The notes below the pieces were generated by a model. The model saw only the letters and a program-made list of their open reading frames with translations. It did not search any database and had not been told where the DNA came from. This document shows, piece by piece, positions 10,449 through 29,684 of a stretch of 64,000 nt of DNA (its first letter is position 1; each line of letters opens with the position of its first letter). Source of the DNA: an uncultured Spirochaetales bacterium (GTDB taxonomy: Bacteria; UBP6; UBA1177); assembly GCA_902774115.1 (NCBI GenBank), contig CACYHH010000006.1, positions 62,001 to 126,000 of the forward strand, read 5' to 3'. Position numbers and translations under genes: made by a program.

Positions 10449-10653
10449 AGATCAAAAATCTTAAATAAATCAATCGCTTACATGGCAAATCTGCAAATGT
10501 AAAAAATATAGCGGATTTTTTTGAACGATGTTTTTCTATGGAAATATTAGATTTTTTGTTGACAAATATTTTGCAAAATATAATTTAATATCGTATGATT
10601 TTTTGTTCTGTTCTCAAAATATGAAAGAATTGATTAAAATACGAGCAAATTTC

Positions 10654-10682
10654 TTGACTTTTAAACTGATATTTTATATAAT
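10654..10682 (+). promoter_or_regulatory. Strong sigma70-type promoter for abiEi
   Basis: TTGACT (10654-10659), a 17-bp spacer and a perfect TATAAT (10677-10682) predict a transcript starting about 25 nt before the AbiEi ATG. A second possible pair lies upstream (TTGACA 10559-10564, TATAAT 10579-10584), but its spacer is only 14 bp. The rest of the 10449-10713 gap is AT-rich with no recognisable gene. Confidence 0.65.
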
Positions 10683-10713
10683 TTCTTGTTGTTTGTTAAA
10701 TTTTGAGGCTTTT

Positions 10714-11307
10714 ATGAAATTGAACAAAAGTTTATTGGAAGAAGCAGCAAGAAATAACGGCATTATTACCACGGAAAATGTCGAGAAACTGGGTTTTTCG
10801 AGGGCTTTGCTTTCGGAATATGTAAAATCAGGAACATTGCTCAGAGTCCGGCAAGGGGTTTATATTCTTCCTGATTCTGTGCATGACGATATGTACACGC
10901 TGATGCTCCGCTCTTCAAAGATAGTTTTTAGCCACGGTTCGGCACTTTTTTTGAACGGAATCGCCGAGAGAACGCCCTTTATCCATCATGTTACGATTCC
11001 GAGCGACTTCTATCTCCCTAATTCTATAAAAAACGAATGTGTTTGCTTTTATGTAAAATCGGATCTGTTCGCTTTGGGGCTAACCGAAAGAAAAACGAGC
11101 ATGGGCAACGAAGTGCGCTGTTACAATGCAGAACGGACTATTTGCGACATTCTTCGTTCAAGAAGCAGGCTGGATGAAGAAACTATTGCCGGAGCTATGA
11201 AAAATTATGCTGCATCTGAGCAGAAAGATTTGAACCTGCTTGCTGAATATGCGCAGAAATTCAAAGTTTTTTCGGAAGTTAAAAGATATCTGGAGGTTTT
11301 ATTGTGA
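10714..11307 (+). CDS. abiEi: AbiEi-like antitoxin / transcriptional regulator
   Basis: The start is ATG 10714, preceded by GAGG, rather than the in-frame start at 10528. The 197-residue protein begins with a winged-helix-type domain (KSLLEEAARNNGIITTENVEKL ... LSEYVKSGTLLRVRQGVYILP), followed by the AbiEi middle and C-terminal region (VFSHGSALFLNGIAERTP; YNAERTICDILRSRSRLDEET). In known AbiE systems this protein is a type IV antitoxin that represses its own operon through the N-terminal winged helix and counters the AbiEii nucleotidyltransferase. Here the regulator looks intact and has a near-consensus promoter, but the partner gene is truncated, so it may survive as a solitary repressor. 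Confidence 0.85.
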   Translation: MKLNKSLLEEAARNNGIITTENVEKLGFSRALLSEYVKSGTLLRVRQGVYILPDSVHDDMYTLMLRSSKIVFSHGSALFLNGIAERTPFIHHVTIPSDFYLPNSIKNECVCFYVKSDLFALGLTERKTSMGNEVRCYNAERTICDILRSRSRLDEETIAGAMKNYAASEQKDLNLLAEYAQKFKVFSEVKRYLEVLL

Positions 11308-11710
11308 CATAATAACTCCGCAAGCGATGAAATACGAGGTTTCGGGAATTTTCGACACTGATTTGCGGATCCCGCTCTGGGGTTACAATATTGAGACGAT
11401 TCTTGCCGAAAAAACTGAAAGTATTTTGTCTCGCGGAATTTTGAATACGCGCCCTCGTGATTTTTATGATGTTTACATTTTGTGCACGACAAAAAAATAC
11501 GACAAAACTATTTTCAAGGAAGCCTTGAAAGCTACTTCGGAACATCGAGGAACTGCCGGAATAATCAATAAAATCCCGCATATTCTTGAGAATATAAGTG
11601 AAAGCAGCGAATTGAAAGAAATGTGGGAAAAATACCGGAAGCAATTTCAGTATGCGAAAGATATTTCCTACGAACAAACCATTGAAGAATTGAAAAAGTT
11701 GATAGATTAA
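11306..11710 (+). pseudogene. abiEii: Truncated AbiEii nucleotidyltransferase toxin (C-terminal half)
   Basis: This frame encodes the C-terminal portion typical of AbiEii: DIITPQAMKYE, then LWGYNIETILAEKTESILSRG and RPRDFYDVYIL, ending in a charged helical tail. In full-length AbiEii a roughly 100-150 residue N-terminal nucleotidyltransferase region with the Gly-Ser and Asp-x-Asp catalytic motifs precedes this; it is absent. The homologous part begins immediately at the AbiEi stop codon (11305-11307) and no in-frame start with a ribosome site gives a catalytic domain, so an internal deletion joined the antitoxin end to mid-toxin. A short protein could still be made from ATG 11329, but it would lack the active site. 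The toxin is therefore probably inactive. Confidence 0.8.
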
Positions 11711-11841
11711 GTTCTGTTCATGGAACGAGAAATTATCAAGAGAATCAAACACTTAATCATCGTTCCTTGAGCTTTCCGAAGCAGTCACTCCGCAACCCGC
11801 CGCAGTTTGCCTTCAGAGGGAAGTTCCATTCAATATCCTGT

Positions 11842-11859
11842 TTTTTGTGATCACAAAAA
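11842..11859. repeat. Perfect 18-bp palindrome in an otherwise empty interval
   Basis: TTTTTGTGATCACAAAAA is fully self-complementary. It lies in the 250-bp gap between the abiE remnant and the next (minus-strand) gene. That gap also holds a longer-range inverted repeat, GGAACGA about 11722 with TCGTTCC about 11760. It could be an operator or a bidirectional terminator; sequence alone does not decide. Confidence 0.5.
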
Positions 11860-11961
11860 TCATGCTGCGCAATCATGTTTGAGAGCTGAGCAATGGGAAA
11901 AAATCAGGTGTTGTTGAGGTCCAAATGTCTTTAATTCGAGGGATGGAAAATTAAAAATGAC

Positions 11962-12324
11962 CTATAAAAGGACGAAAATCGCTATTAAAATAGCCAATCC
12001 TCCGACAGCCGGCCACAAATACGCGCGGAGATAAGAGTTGAAAAATTTTACCAGAAAAAGAAACGGTGCTGATAGGAGGTTGCCGAAATGATAAACTATG
12101 TGGTGTTCATCTTTGATATAGGAAAATGTATTTTGATATTTCCCCATCGTTTTGATAATTACGCCGAAAAGGGCGATGAACCATGCTGCGGCTGCAAGAG
12201 CAACGAGAATCATTTTTATCAGCGTGAAAATTATGAATTTAAATATTATCCATAAATTCTGCCCGATGCTTCGGTGTTCGCGTTCAACAGGATTGGTGTT
12301 GAAATCTTCAGTGTTCTGACTCAT
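11962..12324 (-). CDS. Small membrane protein of unknown function
   Basis: The 120-residue protein starts at ATG 12324 with an AGGAG ribosome site 7 bp upstream. After a polar N-terminus of about 25 residues there are two strong hydrophobic segments (FKFIIFTLIKMILVALAAAA and the following WFIALFGVIIK) that may form one long or two short helices, then a hydrophilic loop, and a C-terminal hydrophobic segment (VGGLAILIAIFVLL). It is likely an inner-membrane protein. I do not recognise a family. It sits downstream of the 66-residue gene on the same strand with a 54-bp gap, so the two are probably co-transcribed from the promoter at 12637-12665. Confidence 0.65.
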   Translation of the reverse strand: MSQNTEDFNTNPVEREHRSIGQNLWIIFKFIIFTLIKMILVALAAAAWFIALFGVIIKTMGKYQNTFSYIKDEHHIVYHFGNLLSAPFLFLVKFFNSYLRAYLWPAVGGLAILIAIFVLL

Positions 12325-12378
12325 TTTATCTCCTTAAATGCGGGCTGAGTCAAAACTCAGCCCTGAATTGTTGGTTCT

Positions 12379-12579
12379 TTAACACTGCCCTTTCAGATTT
12401 CCATAACAATTATACAAGAAAGTAGTATTGCTATTTTTGTCATAAATAGATACCGTGTCAGAAGTATATCCTGCTAGTGTCTGGTGTGAAAATACACCGA
12501 TTGCTCCAATAGGAGCTCCTGCCGCATTGTAGATAACATACGAATCGCCCTGTTTTTTTACTGTTGCGATAGCTTCCAT
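12379..12579 (-). CDS. 66-residue unknown protein, beta-rich
   Basis: The start ATG 12579 follows an AAGGAG site. The short protein alternates polar and hydrophobic residues as in a small beta-sheet: EAIATVKKQGDSYVIYNAAG, then GAIGVFSHQTLAGYTSDTVS and TTFLYNCYGNLKGQC. It has a Cys near the centre of the last strand and a C-terminal Cys. No signal peptide or helix-rich region is seen. It resembles short one-domain proteins of repeated strand-turn units that I cannot name with certainty. Its promoter lies under twin repeats shared with the divergent XRE regulator, so it is the likely regulated target of that regulator. Confidence 0.6.
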   Translation of the reverse strand: MEAIATVKKQGDSYVIYNAAGAPIGAIGVFSHQTLAGYTSDTVSIYDKNSNTTFLYNCYGNLKGQC

Positions 12580-12631
12580 TTTTTTCTCCTTAAAAAAAGT
12601 TAATAAAAAAGGTACAAAAGCCAGCTGACAT

Positions 12632-12685
12632 TGTCACTTATATCATACAAAATTTGAAAAATCAAGAAAATGTCACTTATTTCAT
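12632..12685. promoter_or_regulatory. Twin operator-like direct repeats between divergent genes
   Basis: TGTCACTTATATCAT (12632-12646) and TGTCACTTATTTCAT (12671-12685) match at 14 of 15 positions and are spaced 39 bp start to start. One overlaps the -10 of the minus-strand promoter and the other lies just upstream of its -35. A small palindrome, TGACATTGTCA (12626-12636), overlaps the first copy near the predicted transcription start. This arrangement suggests binding sites for the adjacent XRE regulator. Confidence 0.6.
12637..12665 (-). promoter_or_regulatory. Minus-strand promoter of the 66-residue gene
   Basis: Read on the minus strand, TTGATT (12665-12660) and TATAAG (12642-12637) are separated by 17 bp. 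The -10 element lies inside one of the twin repeats described at 12632-12685. The predicted leader is about 50 nt. Confidence 0.55.
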
Positions 12686-12722
12686 GTAGACTTAAATCCT
12701 GCATTTTCTATCTTTTTCCGTT

Positions 12723-12962
12723 ATGGAAGAGTGCGATATCAAAATAAAGTTCGGGCTTCGCCTAAGAGAGCTCAGAAAAGCTCGCAACATCAGTCAGGAA
12801 GAGCTTATGGCAGCCACCGGAATTCACCGAACATACCTCTCGGAAGTGGAGCGCGGGATCAGAAATATCAGCATCGTGAATGTCGAAAAAATTGCCCGTG
12901 CACTCGATGTAGATGCGATGGAAATGTTTAATTTCAGGAAAGTTACAAGCACAAAAATGTGA
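12723..12962 (+). CDS. XRE-family helix-turn-helix regulator, C-protein-like
   Basis: The 79-residue protein is a single HTH_3 domain. LRELRKARNISQEELMAATG covers the first helices, HRTYLSEVERGIRNIS the recognition helix, and NVEKIARALDVD the last. The HRTYxSxVERGxRNIS pattern is that of restriction-modification controller (C) proteins, yet no restriction or methylase gene is in the window. It is transcribed away from the 66-residue gene, with the twin repeats 38-90 bp upstream of its start. It probably binds them to regulate itself and the divergent gene. Its own promoter is not clear by eye. Confidence 0.85.
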   Translation: MEECDIKIKFGLRLRELRKARNISQEELMAATGIHRTYLSEVERGIRNISIVNVEKIARALDVDAMEMFNFRKVTSTKM

Positions 12963-12994
12963 AAAACTGCGTGGTTTTGCGAGGAAATTCTGCG

Positions 12995-13843
12995 TTATTT
13001 GCAAGTTGTTGTCGTAATTCTTCTCACGGTTTTGAACTTTTTTGAAAACTCTGCGACGATTTTCCGGGCGGTTTCTTCGTTTTCGGTCATTGCAACGAGT
13101 GTGGAACCGCTTCCCGACATGAAGACTTTGTGGGCGCCTAAGGTCTCAAGTTCGGTTTTAACTTCCGCGATTGCAGGAAATTCGGAGAAGACTATCTCTT
13201 CGAAATCATTGAAAATATGCTCTTTTTTCCATGAGAAATTTTCCGGAACGCGGTTTGAAGTGCCGCAGTCGGGATAAGTTTTGTCGAAAAGAGAGTAGGC
13301 GAGCTTTGTGTCGACATGAATTTCCGGGTTTACGAGAACGAAAAACTTTCCGCTTTCGGGGAGTTCGACTGTTTCGATTTTTTCACCTGTTCCCGATACT
13401 ATTGCCGGTTTTCCGAGGATGAAAAACGGGACGTCGCTTCCGATTTTTGAAGCAATTTCAATGAGTTGAGTCAAACTCAAATCAAGTTTGCACTTTTCGT
13501 TCACAAACTTCAGAAATGCCGCCGCGTTGCTGCTGCCGCCGCCCAGACCTGCTCCGGTCGGGATCGATTTTTCGATTTTTACCGAAAATTCCGGAAGTTC
13601 TTTCCCGATATAGGTCCTAAGTGCCGAATATGCTTTGAAAACGATGTTTTTTTCAGTCGGGATCTCTTCGGCGATGCCGTTTGTGGCAACTGAAAAAGAG
13701 CTGCTTTCTTCAATTTCCAGTTTGTCGCATATATCGATCGGGGCGAAAAGAGAACGGAGAAAATGCATTCCGCTCGCCTTATCGCGCCCTTCGATCTTAA
13801 GAAAAATATTGATTTTTGCGGGAGAATAAATTGTTGAAATCAT
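12995..13843 (-). CDS. ispE: 4-diphosphocytidyl-2-C-methyl-D-erythritol kinase IspE
   Basis: This GHMP-family kinase phosphorylates CDP-methylerythritol in the MEP pathway of isoprenoid synthesis. The N-terminus (YSPAKINIFLKI) holds the conserved Lys of IspE, the glycine-rich ATP loop is PTGAGLGGGSSNAAAFL at about residue 91, the conserved GSDVPFFI follows, and the C-terminal GHMP motif is FMSGSGSTLVAM. At 282 residues it is of normal length. It shows that the organism uses the non-mevalonate pathway. It ends 33 bp from the stop of the convergent XRE gene. The M3 peptidase gene lies 16 bp upstream on the same strand, so co-transcription is possible. Confidence 0.93.
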   Translation of the reverse strand: MISTIYSPAKINIFLKIEGRDKASGMHFLRSLFAPIDICDKLEIEESSSFSVATNGIAEEIPTEKNIVFKAYSALRTYIGKELPEFSVKIEKSIPTGAGLGGGSSNAAAFLKFVNEKCKLDLSLTQLIEIASKIGSDVPFFILGKPAIVSGTGEKIETVELPESGKFFVLVNPEIHVDTKLAYSLFDKTYPDCGTSNRVPENFSWKKEHIFNDFEEIVFSEFPAIAEVKTELETLGAHKVFMSGSGSTLVAMTENEETARKIVAEFSKKFKTVRRITTTTCK

Positions 13844-25983: not shown

Positions 25984-27324
25984 ATGTGGAAAACAATAAT
26001 AGAAGAGCTTAAAAAAACCAGCAATAACGAAATAAATACTTTCATTGACGCTCTTTCTCCGAAAGAAGAATCCAGAGAAAAAATAATCGTTAACTGCAAA
26101 AGCAAATATGCTTATAATTTTCTCAAAAAAAACAATTACTTATCTAAAATAGACAAAATTGCTAAAACTCTGTTTGACGAAAATACGGAAATTCAGTTTA
26201 TGGTAATTCCGGAAAACGAAGAAAAGGATCTTCAGCTCGAATTTGACTTCAAAAAAGAGGATAAAACCAGTAAAGACAATGATAAAACTTCCGATGAATA
26301 TGAAAAATACAAAGACTATACTTTCAACAATTTCGTAATGGGCCCTTCCAATGCAGGTGTTTACCTTGCAGCTCAGGCTATAGCCAAAAATCCCGGAACA
26401 GGCTATAATCCTTTTTTCATATACGGTGATTCAGGACTCGGAAAAACACACATAATACAGGCTATAGGAAACTACATAGTAAGCAACAAACACAAAAAAG
26501 TTTATTATTCGACTACAAACCAGCTTTTAATAGACTATATCAAAGCAATCGAATCAAAGACTATCTCTGATTTCAGGGAAAAAATAATAAAAAATGATGT
26601 TCTTCTTATAGACGATATTCAGTTTTTATCAGGAAAATCCGGAACCCAGAACGAATTTTTCTACATTTTCAACCAGTTTTACGACAAGAAAAAACAGATA
26701 GTCATAACCTCAGATAAACACATAACTGAAATAAACGATATAGACAGCAGACTAAGATCACGGTTCTCAATGGGCGTTACACTTGAGATAATTCCTCCTG
26801 AATACGAAACAAGAGTCGCAATCATAAAAAAGAAATCAGAACTTTACGACATGAAAATAGAAGATGAAGTAGCTGATCTGATAGCTTTCAACATGAAGAA
26901 CAACGTCCGTGAAATAGAAGGAGCCCTTAACACTCTTAAAATATCCCATGAATTCATAGGAAACGGAGTTATTGATCTTAAATTTGCCGAAAACATCCTT
27001 AAAAAAATGATAAAAAAACAGCCTACGGAAATAGAGGACATAATAAAAATAGTTTCTGCCGCAACAAAGGTAAAACCTTCAGACATGATCTCAAAAAGCA
27101 GAACGAAAGGAATTTCCATATCGAGACAGATAGCTATTTACCTGACAAGAAAATACACCTCAAAAACTTTCAAGGAAATAGGTGAAAAATTCGGCGGAAG
27201 AGACCATTCCACAATAATAACGTCTATTTCAAACGTAGAAAAACTCATACTTGACGACGAACAGATATCCAAACTTGTAAATAAACTAAGCAAAGAAATC
27301 GAAAGCTCGGAAAAGGGTTTATAA
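25984..27324 (+). CDS. dnaA: Chromosomal replication initiator DnaA
   Basis: The 446-residue initiator has domain I (residues 1-80), a charged linker, the AAA+ domain with YTFNNFVMGPSN at its start, Walker A (GDSGLGKTHI), Walker B (LLIDDIQFLSG) and sensor regions (DSRLRSRFSMG), and domain IV with the DnaA-box-binding signature FGGRDHSTI. An AAGAGG ribosome site precedes ATG 25984. Isoleucine is encoded mostly by ATA, unlike glyA or bamA. dnaN and recF follow, the classical origin-proximal order. Confidence 0.96.
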   Translation: MWKTIIEELKKTSNNEINTFIDALSPKEESREKIIVNCKSKYAYNFLKKNNYLSKIDKIAKTLFDENTEIQFMVIPENEEKDLQLEFDFKKEDKTSKDNDKTSDEYEKYKDYTFNNFVMGPSNAGVYLAAQAIAKNPGTGYNPFFIYGDSGLGKTHIIQAIGNYIVSNKHKKVYYSTTNQLLIDYIKAIESKTISDFREKIIKNDVLLIDDIQFLSGKSGTQNEFFYIFNQFYDKKKQIVITSDKHITEINDIDSRLRSRFSMGVTLEIIPPEYETRVAIIKKKSELYDMKIEDEVADLIAFNMKNNVREIEGALNTLKISHEFIGNGVIDLKFAENILKKMIKKQPTEIEDIIKIVSAATKVKPSDMISKSRTKGISISRQIAIYLTRKYTSKTFKEIGEKFGGRDHSTIITSISNVEKLILDDEQISKLVNKLSKEIESSEKGL

Positions 27325-27328
27325 CAAA

Positions 27329-27398
27329 TGTTGAAAACCGGTATGTTGAAAATCTGAAACCATGAACAGACAACAAAAAACAAACATTTTTTTCAACA
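27329..27398. promoter_or_regulatory. Candidate origin: three TTTTCAACA elements after dnaA
   Basis: The 175-bp dnaA-dnaN interval contains TGTTGAAAA at 27329-27337 and 27344-27352 and the inverted copy TTTTCAACA at 27390-27398, followed by a long AT-rich stretch. TTTTCAACA differs from the classical DnaA box TTATCCACA at two positions. Position between dnaA and dnaN, clustering and the AT-rich flank fit an oriC or a dnaA/dnaN control region. This is inference. Confidence 0.5.
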
Positions 27399-27428
27399 CT
27401 GAAAGGCTTTATCATCATCATGTTTTTA

Positions 27429-27459
27429 TTGACAATTTTTCAGCTTTAAACATTATAAC
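27429..27459 (+). promoter_or_regulatory. Possible dnaN promoter
   Basis: A perfect TTGACA (27429-27434) is followed after 19 bp by TATAAC (27454-27459), or after 16 bp by CATTAT. The transcript would begin about 30 nt before the dnaN ATG, whose ribosome site is AAGGAG. Confidence 0.4.
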
Positions 27460-27499
27460 AGAGGTTATTTATATTGTTTTTTAAGATAAGGAGAGAATT

Positions 27500-28651
27500 A
27501 TGATTAAATTAACTTTCAAAAAAGATGAACTTCTCAAGGCTCTTGACTACTGCAGCTCATGTGTAGAAAAAAAACATCCGATGGTAATTCTTACCAGTGT
27601 TCTTTTCAGCTTCAAAGATAAAGAATGCACTCTCAGCGCTACAAATCTTGAAATAACGGTTTTAGCAAAGGTAAATCTTGAAGAACCGGTTGAAGAAGGA
27701 AAGATAGCTGTTCCTGCAAGATCTATCCATGATATATGCCGTCTTTCAAGAGCTGAAAACATAGTATTCAAATACGGTGAATCAAACAATGTTCTCGATA
27801 TAACTGCTGACAAGTCTGAATACAAGGTTCCGTGCTTTAATCCTTCTGATTTTCCTGAAATTTCAGATACTTCTAAAGATTACAAACCTGTAAAGATAAG
27901 CAAACTTATCTCTTTCTACAAAAAAGTTCAGTTCTCAATGACTGAAAACTACATGACAAAGGCTTACTCAGGCGTTCTCATCATAAAAATAAAGAACGAT
28001 GACGGAACTGAAACTGTAGATATGGTTACTACAGATATTCACAGACTTTCAGTTCTTATGCTTAAAAACTTCGCTCTTGACATTCCTGAATTTGAAAGTG
28101 GCATAGTTGTTCCGGGAAAGAATTTTGCTGAAATAACCAAAATTTTTGCCGATATTGAAGATGCTTATGTAGCTATAGACGATGAAAAAATGTTTATAAA
28201 AATTGAAAATTTAACCTTTATTTCAAGACTTTTCAAAAACGAATTTCCGAAGCACCGTCCGATTATAGGAACTTACGAAGTTCTGAACGGAAAAGAGTTT
28301 GCAGTTGTCAACAGAAAAGAACTTATTGAAGCTATAAAACGCGTAGTCATCGTTCTTAACTCAGAAGACAAGATGTGGGTTTCAAAATATTTCTTCAACG
28401 GAAATGTTCTTAAACTCACGGCAAATTCGAATACAGGCGGAACTTCGACTGATGAGATAGTTATTGAAAAAGGATTTTCGACTGAAAGAAGCGTTGCTGT
28501 AAATGCTAAATATTTCCTTGATGTTATAAATGTTATAGATGACAACAACGTAAATGTTATAGTTGACGGAGCTGCAAACAAACCTATGACCTTGAAAGAA
28601 GAAACAGACGAATTCTTCTATGTTCACATGATTATGCCTCTCAGAATCTAA
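27500..28651 (+). CDS. dnaN: DNA polymerase III sliding clamp (beta subunit)
   Basis: The 383-residue protein starts at ATG 27500 with AAGGAG upstream. The three-fold clamp architecture is indicated by the N-terminal segment KKDELLKALDYCSSCVEKKHPMVILTSVLF, the TDIHRLSVL strand in the middle domain (usually TDGHRL) and the C-terminal MIMPLRI (usually MPMRL/I). The length is normal. It holds the replicase on DNA. It lies between dnaA and recF, and recF starts 4 bp after its stop, suggesting one transcript. Confidence 0.93.
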   Translation: MIKLTFKKDELLKALDYCSSCVEKKHPMVILTSVLFSFKDKECTLSATNLEITVLAKVNLEEPVEEGKIAVPARSIHDICRLSRAENIVFKYGESNNVLDITADKSEYKVPCFNPSDFPEISDTSKDYKPVKISKLISFYKKVQFSMTENYMTKAYSGVLIIKIKNDDGTETVDMVTTDIHRLSVLMLKNFALDIPEFESGIVVPGKNFAEITKIFADIEDAYVAIDDEKMFIKIENLTFISRLFKNEFPKHRPIIGTYEVLNGKEFAVVNRKELIEAIKRVVIVLNSEDKMWVSKYFFNGNVLKLTANSNTGGTSTDEIVIEKGFSTERSVAVNAKYFLDVINVIDDNNVNVIVDGAANKPMTLKEETDEFFYVHMIMPLRI

Positions 28652-28655
28652 TTTT

Positions 28656-29684
28656 ATGAAAATAAACTCTATTTTCATATCCAACTTCAGATCACTTTCT
28701 GATTTTTCAATAAATCTGCCTCAGAAACTGCTTATAAAAGGAAAAACTGGCTCGGGAAAGACTTCTATCCTTGAATCCTGTTTTGTCGTTTCAAGCGGAA
28801 GGTCTTTCAAAACATTCGACATAAAAGACTGCATTTCAAAAGATAGCCAGAATTTTTATATTGAATCTGATTTTGACGATTTTGAGAACTACAGCAGAAA
28901 AGTTTCAGTTGCTTACGATAGAAAAGGAAATAAAAAAATCATAATAGACGGCAATGTTTCTTCGAGAAAGGATCTTTTGAGCATAGCTTATCCTGTCGTT
29001 CACTCTCCTGAAGACATGTTTATAATCACCGGAAGTCCTAAATTTCGCAGAGATTTCATAGACAGAATCTGTTTTGTAGAGGATAAAAGCTATTTTGATG
29101 ACATGAGCGAATATATAAAATATATCAGGAATAAAAACGCAGCTCTTAAAGACAAAAATGCAGAAGTCGTAAAATATCTGAATGCAGCTGCCGCTCCGCT
29201 TATAGACAGAATAAGGAAAAAAAGGAATGTTTCATGTGAAACAATCAATAAAAAAGTATCGGTTTTACTGGAAAAACTCTTTTCAGGAATGAAAGTTTTC
29301 TTTACTTACAACATTGATGAAAACTATGCGGAAAAGCTTGAAAGCAGACTTGAAAAAGAGCTTGAAAAAGGTTTTTCGCTTTACGGGCCTCATCTCGACA
29401 ACATAAATATAACTACAGAAGTAGGAAATGCCAAAAATAATATTTCGATGGGTGAAACCTATATAACTTCATTCCTTATAAAACTTGCGGAACTCAGTAT
29501 TTATGCCGAAAAAAACGAGTTTCCTATATTTCTCATAGATGATATTTTTGTTTTTGTCGACGATGAAACCAAAAAGACTCTTTTTAAAGAAATAGAGGTT
29601 CTCAAAAATCAGATCATAATGAGTAGTTCAATAGAAAATCTTAATAATTTTAATAATATAGAAGTTTTTTACCTGTCAAGGTAA
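28656..29684 (+). CDS. recF: DNA replication and repair protein RecF
   Basis: The 342-residue SMC-like ATPase loads RecA at gaps. It has the N-terminal strand IFISNFRSLSDFSI, Walker A (IKGKTGSGKTSILES), the conserved SSRKD-x-L and HSPEDMFIITGSPKFRRDFID regions (typically PEDL-x-L-V-x-G-x-P-x-x-R-R-x-F-L-D), and a C-terminal Walker B FLIDDIFVFVDDETKK. The usual QGQ-type signature is weak (NNISMGETYITSF), so the signature loop is diverged. It is slightly shorter than common RecF. It ends convergently with the next gene, overlapping by 16 bp. gyrB, often next, is absent. Confidence 0.9.
   Translation: MKINSIFISNFRSLSDFSINLPQKLLIKGKTGSGKTSILESCFVVSSGRSFKTFDIKDCISKDSQNFYIESDFDDFENYSRKVSVAYDRKGNKKIIIDGNVSSRKDLLSIAYPVVHSPEDMFIITGSPKFRRDFIDRICFVEDKSYFDDMSEYIKYIRNKNAALKDKNAEVVKYLNAAAAPLIDRIRKKRNVSCETINKKVSVLLEKLFSGMKVFFTYNIDENYAEKLESRLEKELEKGFSLYGPHLDNINITTEVGNAKNNISMGETYITSFLIKLAELSIYAEKNEFPIFLIDDIFVFVDDETKKTLFKEIEVLKNQIIMSSSIENLNNFNNIEVFYLSR

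Follow-up and report, generated by a model that had tools for sequence, protein, structure and literature searches.

A candidate controller-protein switch outside restriction-modification, with conserved operators and exchangeable cargo, in UBP6-phylum bacteria

Controller proteins are understood as timers of restriction-modification systems. In published accounts, the C-box is described as two operators with an outer TG...CA located upstream of the controller gene (PMC3115060), with the distal site serving for activation and the proximal site for repression (PMC6237814, PMC4824078), and leaderless controller transcripts are reported (PMC4824078). The literature on Esp1396I describes separate C sites of distinct affinities at the controller gene and at the methylase promoter (PMC4824078); that on C.Kpn2I describes repression of a divergent methylase promoter, together with relatives named Xre proteins, many of which have no restriction-modification association (PMC6237814). 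No described controller acting without restriction-modification was found in our literature search, in which most subscription papers were outside reach. In 2009, Sorokin et al. reportedly classified the sites of control proteins. The locus compared here with these systems lies in a 64-kb stretch of DNA (the window) and is best explained, with a probability that we put at roughly 70%, as a controller-protein switch that would be uncoupled from restriction-modification, activate its own gene, and repress an exchangeable cargo. Its features, given by window coordinates and strand, center on the 143-bp intergenic region between the regulator gene and a gene for a 66-residue protein:

10449-13010, no strand: island (AbiE remnant plus cassette), ends approximate
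11799-11906, no strand: left boundary of the cassette, a dispersed repeat of about 105 bp; the window copy has the palindrome TTTTTGTGATCACAAAAA inside
11962-12324, minus: 120-residue membrane protein, second cargo gene, full-length in the same four genomes as the 66-residue gene
12341-12363, minus: hairpin between the two cargo genes (-17.3 kcal/mol, z -3.06), without a U-run
12379-12579, minus: 66-residue cargo protein of no known family, with a low-confidence all-beta model (pLDDT 65)
12593-12609, minus: conserved leader TTTTTATTAACTTTTTT, just 5′ of the cargo ribosome-binding site
12632-12646, plus: site 1, TGTCACTTATATCAT, first repeat, direct orientation
12632-12649, plus: lone TG...CA operator TGTCACTTATATCATACA (site 1 plus ACA), over the divergent -10
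12637-12665, minus: putative divergent promoter TTGATT-N17-TATAAG (-35 at 12660-12665, -10 at 12637-12642)
12671-12685, plus: site 2, TGTCACTTATTTCAT, second repeat, direct orientation
12671-12703, plus: candidate C-box of the regulator, composed of left operator TGTCACTTATTTCAT (12671-12685) and right operator TGTAGACTTAAATCCTGCA (12685-12703)
12687-12714, plus: putative regulator promoter TAGACT-N16-TATCTT
12723-12962, plus: 79-residue regulator of the controller-protein family (HTH_3/Xre; HTH_3 E 8.3e-17)

The regulator is a single-domain HTH protein in the size range of about 70-100 residues and is nearest to known controllers, which bears out an earlier note on this DNA that had assigned it to the restriction-controller type. 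Its best PDB match was C.BclI (2b5a, E 1.7e-19), C.AhdI was matched at E 1.3e-16, and Control_protein was the best PADLOC family (E 2.3e-24). Orthologues of 64-100% identity were detected in six other genomes (61 searched), the next best match being 50%; within the genus, identity was 77-100%. When 14 plasmid relatives, fetched from among 389 matching plasmid records, were considered, ten were found to adjoin a methylase gene and four were not, and restriction-modification thus appears to be the usual setting of such regulators. A viral identity for the 66-residue gene or the regulator was rejected, as viral contigs held no relative of the former and only 31-34% relatives of the latter; weak regulator matches were present in 15 of 50,697 phage records. 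Solitary controller-like regulators also stand opposite lipoprotein or exported-protein genes in Undibacterium, Duganella, and a record titled Flavobacterium (loci L052, L053, and L056), and a second controller-like regulator lies directly 5′ of a 684-residue helicase-like gene (L085 and L086, in G000 and G012), with a canonical C-box (TGATACTTATAGTCTGTCGACT) in its G012 and G007 copies.

The earlier note had also remarked that no restriction-modification gene accompanies the regulator. In agreement, a Pfam scan of 26 window ORFs, reaching to about 42 kb, detected no restriction-modification domain, and PADLOC found no linked methylase or endonuclease among 10 neighbor proteins of G004, G009, G014, and G021. 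The linked methylase and endonuclease of a Type II restriction-modification system are thus missing. By its sequence and operator the regulator belongs to the controller family, yet the locus itself does not constitute a restriction-modification system. The G009 locus may differ, since about 220 bp 3′ of the regulator, in the position expected for a restriction gene, the same strand carries a YhcG-type PDDEXK nuclease gene (L048 6454-7557); no methylase is present.

The two 15-bp repeats are where the earlier note had placed them, 39 bp apart from start to start with a gap of 24 bp, and are far above chance: at ≤1 mismatch they are the sole matches in 64 kb, compared with a mean of 0.00 in 100 shuffles. 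At ≤3 mismatches, six matches were obtained versus 3.16 expected in the 64-kb window, and these looser matches are therefore regarded as background. Among 29 UBP6-phylum genomes, the pair at equal spacing occurs once per genome in all seven carriers of the regulator and in none of the 22 others; six of these loci are from one genus, three (G000, G002, and G011) have one insertion in common, and only G021 is distant, so the seven do not count as seven independent cases. Record titles mark the relatives as metagenome bins or as uncultured isolates, and ruminant gut samples are named among them. The 15-mer of site 1 is invariant at 7/7 loci and is followed by [AG]CA in all. In G021, which is of a different family, site 1 is identical at 15/15 positions and site 2 at 13/15; the 20 bp preceding site 1 match at 6/20 and the 24-bp spacer at 13/24. 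The co-occurrence check suggested with the original observation gave the same picture, the repeats being present in all four genomes with both the regulator and the 66-residue gene. The exact 15-mer has 17 copies in 28 phylum genomes, of which 13 fall within the seven cassettes; the other four (G001, G003, G004, and G010) are all within open frames, and no intergenic copy was found outside the cassettes in these 28 genomes. A regulon was therefore rejected, and a local switch is preferred because the exact 15-mer is absent outside coding frames elsewhere.

The minus-strand TTGATT-17-TATAAG element noted earlier is present, with site 1 spanning its -10 and site 2 beginning 5 bp past its -35, again as had been described. 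This divergent promoter is assigned on conservation (TTGA[CT]T-N17/18-TATAAG at 7/7 loci), because its TATAAG is without the final T and a consensus promoter scan matched neither it nor the regulator promoter. The regulator promoter is likewise putative: TAGAC[TC]-N16-TATCTT or TACAAT is found at 7/7 loci, 7-8 nt from -10 to the regulator ATG. This promoter is probably weak and its transcript probably leaderless, the latter since no Shine-Dalgarno sequence was seen in the window and the ATG lies 8 nt past the -10. The leader TTTTTATTAACTTTTTT was found at the six genus loci, where it precedes differing cargo, and is missing in G021.

The repeats had originally been taken as one pair acting on the promoter of the small gene. 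This stands for site 1, which lies over the -10 of that promoter, but a better reading of site 2 makes it the left operator in a C-box of the BclI type that belongs to the promoter of the regulator itself. The 33-bp TG...CA stretch at 12671-12703 has the two-operator form with outer TG...CA ahead of its own controller gene and is conserved at 7/7 loci, and its left half, TGTCACTTA, is also present in pBcl1. Compared with pBcl1, the right operator of the window is identical at 16/19 positions (14-16/19 across the six UBP6 sequences compared), and the region 5′ of the pBcl1 controller gene, AATGTCACTTAAAGTCTGTAGACTTATAGCCTACA, has the same layout as site 2 with its downstream bases, TGTCACTTATTTCATGTAGACTTAAATCCTGCA. 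The left operator is thus placed just 5′ of the regulator -35, the right operator over this -35, and the lone operator over the cargo -10. On its right side the left operator departs from AGTC, and neither 15-bp site has, in its right half, the AGT of the canonical operator, for which reason affinity could be low.

The recognition helix was compared with the operators in a table of 25 regulators that were hand-picked, non-random, and inclusive of related sequences; here, a TGTCAC-type half-site (GTCACT or ATCACT) was present for 10/10 regulators with a Glu in the helix (S-E-V-E) and for 0/15 others. The table is without G002, G011, and G014, which are near copies with the same helix and sites, and loci L010, L012, L013, L014, L051, L055, L056, L057, L058, L059, and L060 are outside it. 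Among its 15 non-Glu rows, those of L. helveticus and Niallia lack a clear operator of this form, and Photobacterium has a single incidental AGCACTCAA. Judged by these sequences, the table ties the S-E-V-E helix to the sites better than co-occurrence alone. TGTCACT[TC]AT half-sites also accompany the solitary Undibacterium and Duganella regulators (L052 and L053).

At the ispE site, G000, G002, and G011 carry the AbiE-plus-cassette island, whereas it is absent in G001, G004, G006, and G014, where the upstream gene directly adjoins ispE; other genes occupy the site in G003, G008, G009, G012, and G013 (G005 and G010 were not judgeable, and G007 has no ispE match). The same inserted island includes an AbiE pair (10528-11710), in which AbiEii is reduced to its C-terminal part (156 codons versus the 277-residue frames of L044 and L045), and an internal deletion seems to have disrupted the toxin half. 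In G004 and G014 the cassette is elsewhere, beside MNT/HEPN genes and a gene whose product weakly matches LmuA/ThsA and Avs, and defense-type genes neighbor the island or cassette in the window, G004, G014, and G009. The repeat of about 105 bp at the left boundary occurs in 9/28 phylum genomes, with several copies in some (L066-L075 and L078 among the loci), and is found in G004 as well despite the different genes beside it. A reading of this dispersed repeat as a transposon end was rejected, with no target-site duplication or recombinase seen. The window also contains dnaA, dnaN, and a recF-like gene at 25984-29684, which mark a likely replication origin region about 13 kb from the cassette.

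The switch had initially been viewed as dedicated to the 66- and 120-residue genes. Comparison of the cassettes did not support this assignment: the two genes are carried by G000, G002, G011, and G014, and the cargo is replaced in the other three genomes, with the regulator and repeats staying in place. The replacements are mutually unrelated and lipoprotein-like, namely (i) a 470-residue protein with an Lcl_C domain, together with a 180-residue protein, in G004; (ii) a 92-residue protein in G009; and (iii) a protein of about 685 residues with beta-propeller repeats in G021. By a pattern of our own, a lipobox-like start was found in 3/3 of these versus 5/49 window ORFs of ≥120 residues. Homology from cassette to cassette stops at the cargo start codon, and with each incoming gene the operator has thus held its register. 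The exchange is clearest between G004 and G014, with both flanks on single contigs: the left flank is 94% and the right part 89% identical, and between them lie 2,030 versus 667 unrelated bases. When the window and G014 were compared, the two cargo genes were identical at 362/363 and 201/201 positions versus 221/240 for the regulator, 97/111 for the left repeat, 137/152 (gap included) for the intergenic region, 93% for glyA, and 78% for ispE DNA. Cargo this nearly identical, alongside a less similar regulator, glyA, and ispE, shows that it moved recently and apart from the regulator. The 66-residue gene was detected in 4/61 genomes at 98-100% identity, with a 72-residue paralogue in two, and the 120-residue protein has a 40% relative in G003. 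No significant Pfam, NCBIfam, or PADLOC family was found for the 66-residue protein, and an attempt to derive its function from structure was dropped, as the model was built from three sequences (pLDDT 65) and a PDB search at E ≤ 0.001 found nothing, propeller fragments ranking highest with E 0.12. In G002 and G014, the 72-residue paralogue (L042 1483-1701 and L043 160-378) has no operator pair and is directly followed by an Lcl_C-type lipoprotein gene.

From the geometry of operators and promoters, and by analogy with described systems, we infer self-activation, self-limitation, and cargo repression. The 79-residue regulator is predicted to bind two places of the intergenic region. Dimers bound to the left C-box operator, immediately 5′ of the -35, would activate the weak promoter of the regulator, and at a higher regulator level occupation of the right operator over the -35 would limit it. 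At the lone operator, the regulator would cover the divergent -10 and turn the cargo operon off. In a cell without regulator the cargo promoter would thus be expected to fire first and to be silenced as the regulator accumulates, which would put the cargo, whatever its presumed function, in the place of the methyltransferase of a BclI-like system. The regulator, operators, and leader would be the constant parts of this arrangement and the cargo genes the exchanged ones. A tentative extension, possible though we would not bet on it, is that the cassette is a mobile entry-timing unit, in which a gene in the former methylase slot bursts on arrival and then comes under self-limiting repression, with small proteins and surface lipoproteins as the cargo, swapped through recombination between the left dispersed repeat and the constant right part.

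Other explanations were weighed against this switch. The locus might be the relic of a BclI-like system that lost its methylase and nuclease, with the controller left as a self-regulating remnant and the neighbors arriving by chance. That 10/14 plasmid relatives adjoin a methylase gene and that no restriction-modification gene remains here are consistent with such a loss; however, a relic should lose the lone operator, which is exact at 7/7 loci, the other family included, and stays in register with each new cargo where homology ends at the start codon. We therefore consider a relic unlikely. Still less probable is a toxin-antitoxin-like pair, in which the regulator would repress in the manner of an antitoxin and the small divergent protein would be the toxin or its partner. 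Although the small size, the compact operon-like layout, and the defense-rich island beside AbiE, MNT/HEPN, and YhcG genes would suit it, the partner of a regulator 77-100% identical within the genus is replaced by unrelated lipoproteins (92, 470, and about 685 residues), and no toxin family was matched in Pfam, NCBIfam, or PADLOC. The conserved partner of a known toxin family that marks a Type II toxin-antitoxin system was thus not found, and of the readings weighed here we rank this one lowest.

An ordinary autoregulated Xre repressor of a surface-protein gene, similar to controllers through a common fold only, is almost as improbable. It would account for the lipobox-like start in 3/4 cargo types, again versus 5/49 window ORFs of ≥120 residues, and for the Undibacterium and titled-Flavobacterium regulators that oppose lipoprotein-like genes, as does the Duganella one a gene with a signal-like start. 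Yet the sequence, operator layout, and probable leaderless start fit the BclI controller specifically, and a repressor of this kind differs from the controller-protein switch mainly by name and by whether self-activation occurs. The switch uncoupled from restriction-modification remains our preferred reading, and the conserved parts and replaced cargo suggest its reuse as a portable control unit. If true, the timing circuit would be a portable module with interchangeable, non-restriction cargo; the cassettes would form a natural series of one switch with differing genes, from which one could learn which incoming genes need a burst followed by silence; and a candidate rule of operator recognition, in which a helix Glu goes with TGTCAC, is offered.

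Of the described systems, pBcl1 with its controller C.BclI is alike in that its controller gene is preceded by the same TGTCACTTA...TGTAGACTTA operator and that its methylase gene diverges from the controller, as the cargo does here. It is unlike the present locus in that it carries the methylase and a downstream gene, and that TGTCACTTA does not recur within the 170 bp examined; the locus here has a lone operator on the divergent promoter and no restriction-modification genes. The Esp1396I system is similar in having a second site, there at the methylase promoter, and different in its target, which is predicted here to be a set of non-methylase, exchangeable genes. C.Kpn2I binds within the gene that encodes it and is at most 29% identical to most controllers (PMC6237814), whereas the regulator here is of the BclI type, with its C-box upstream.
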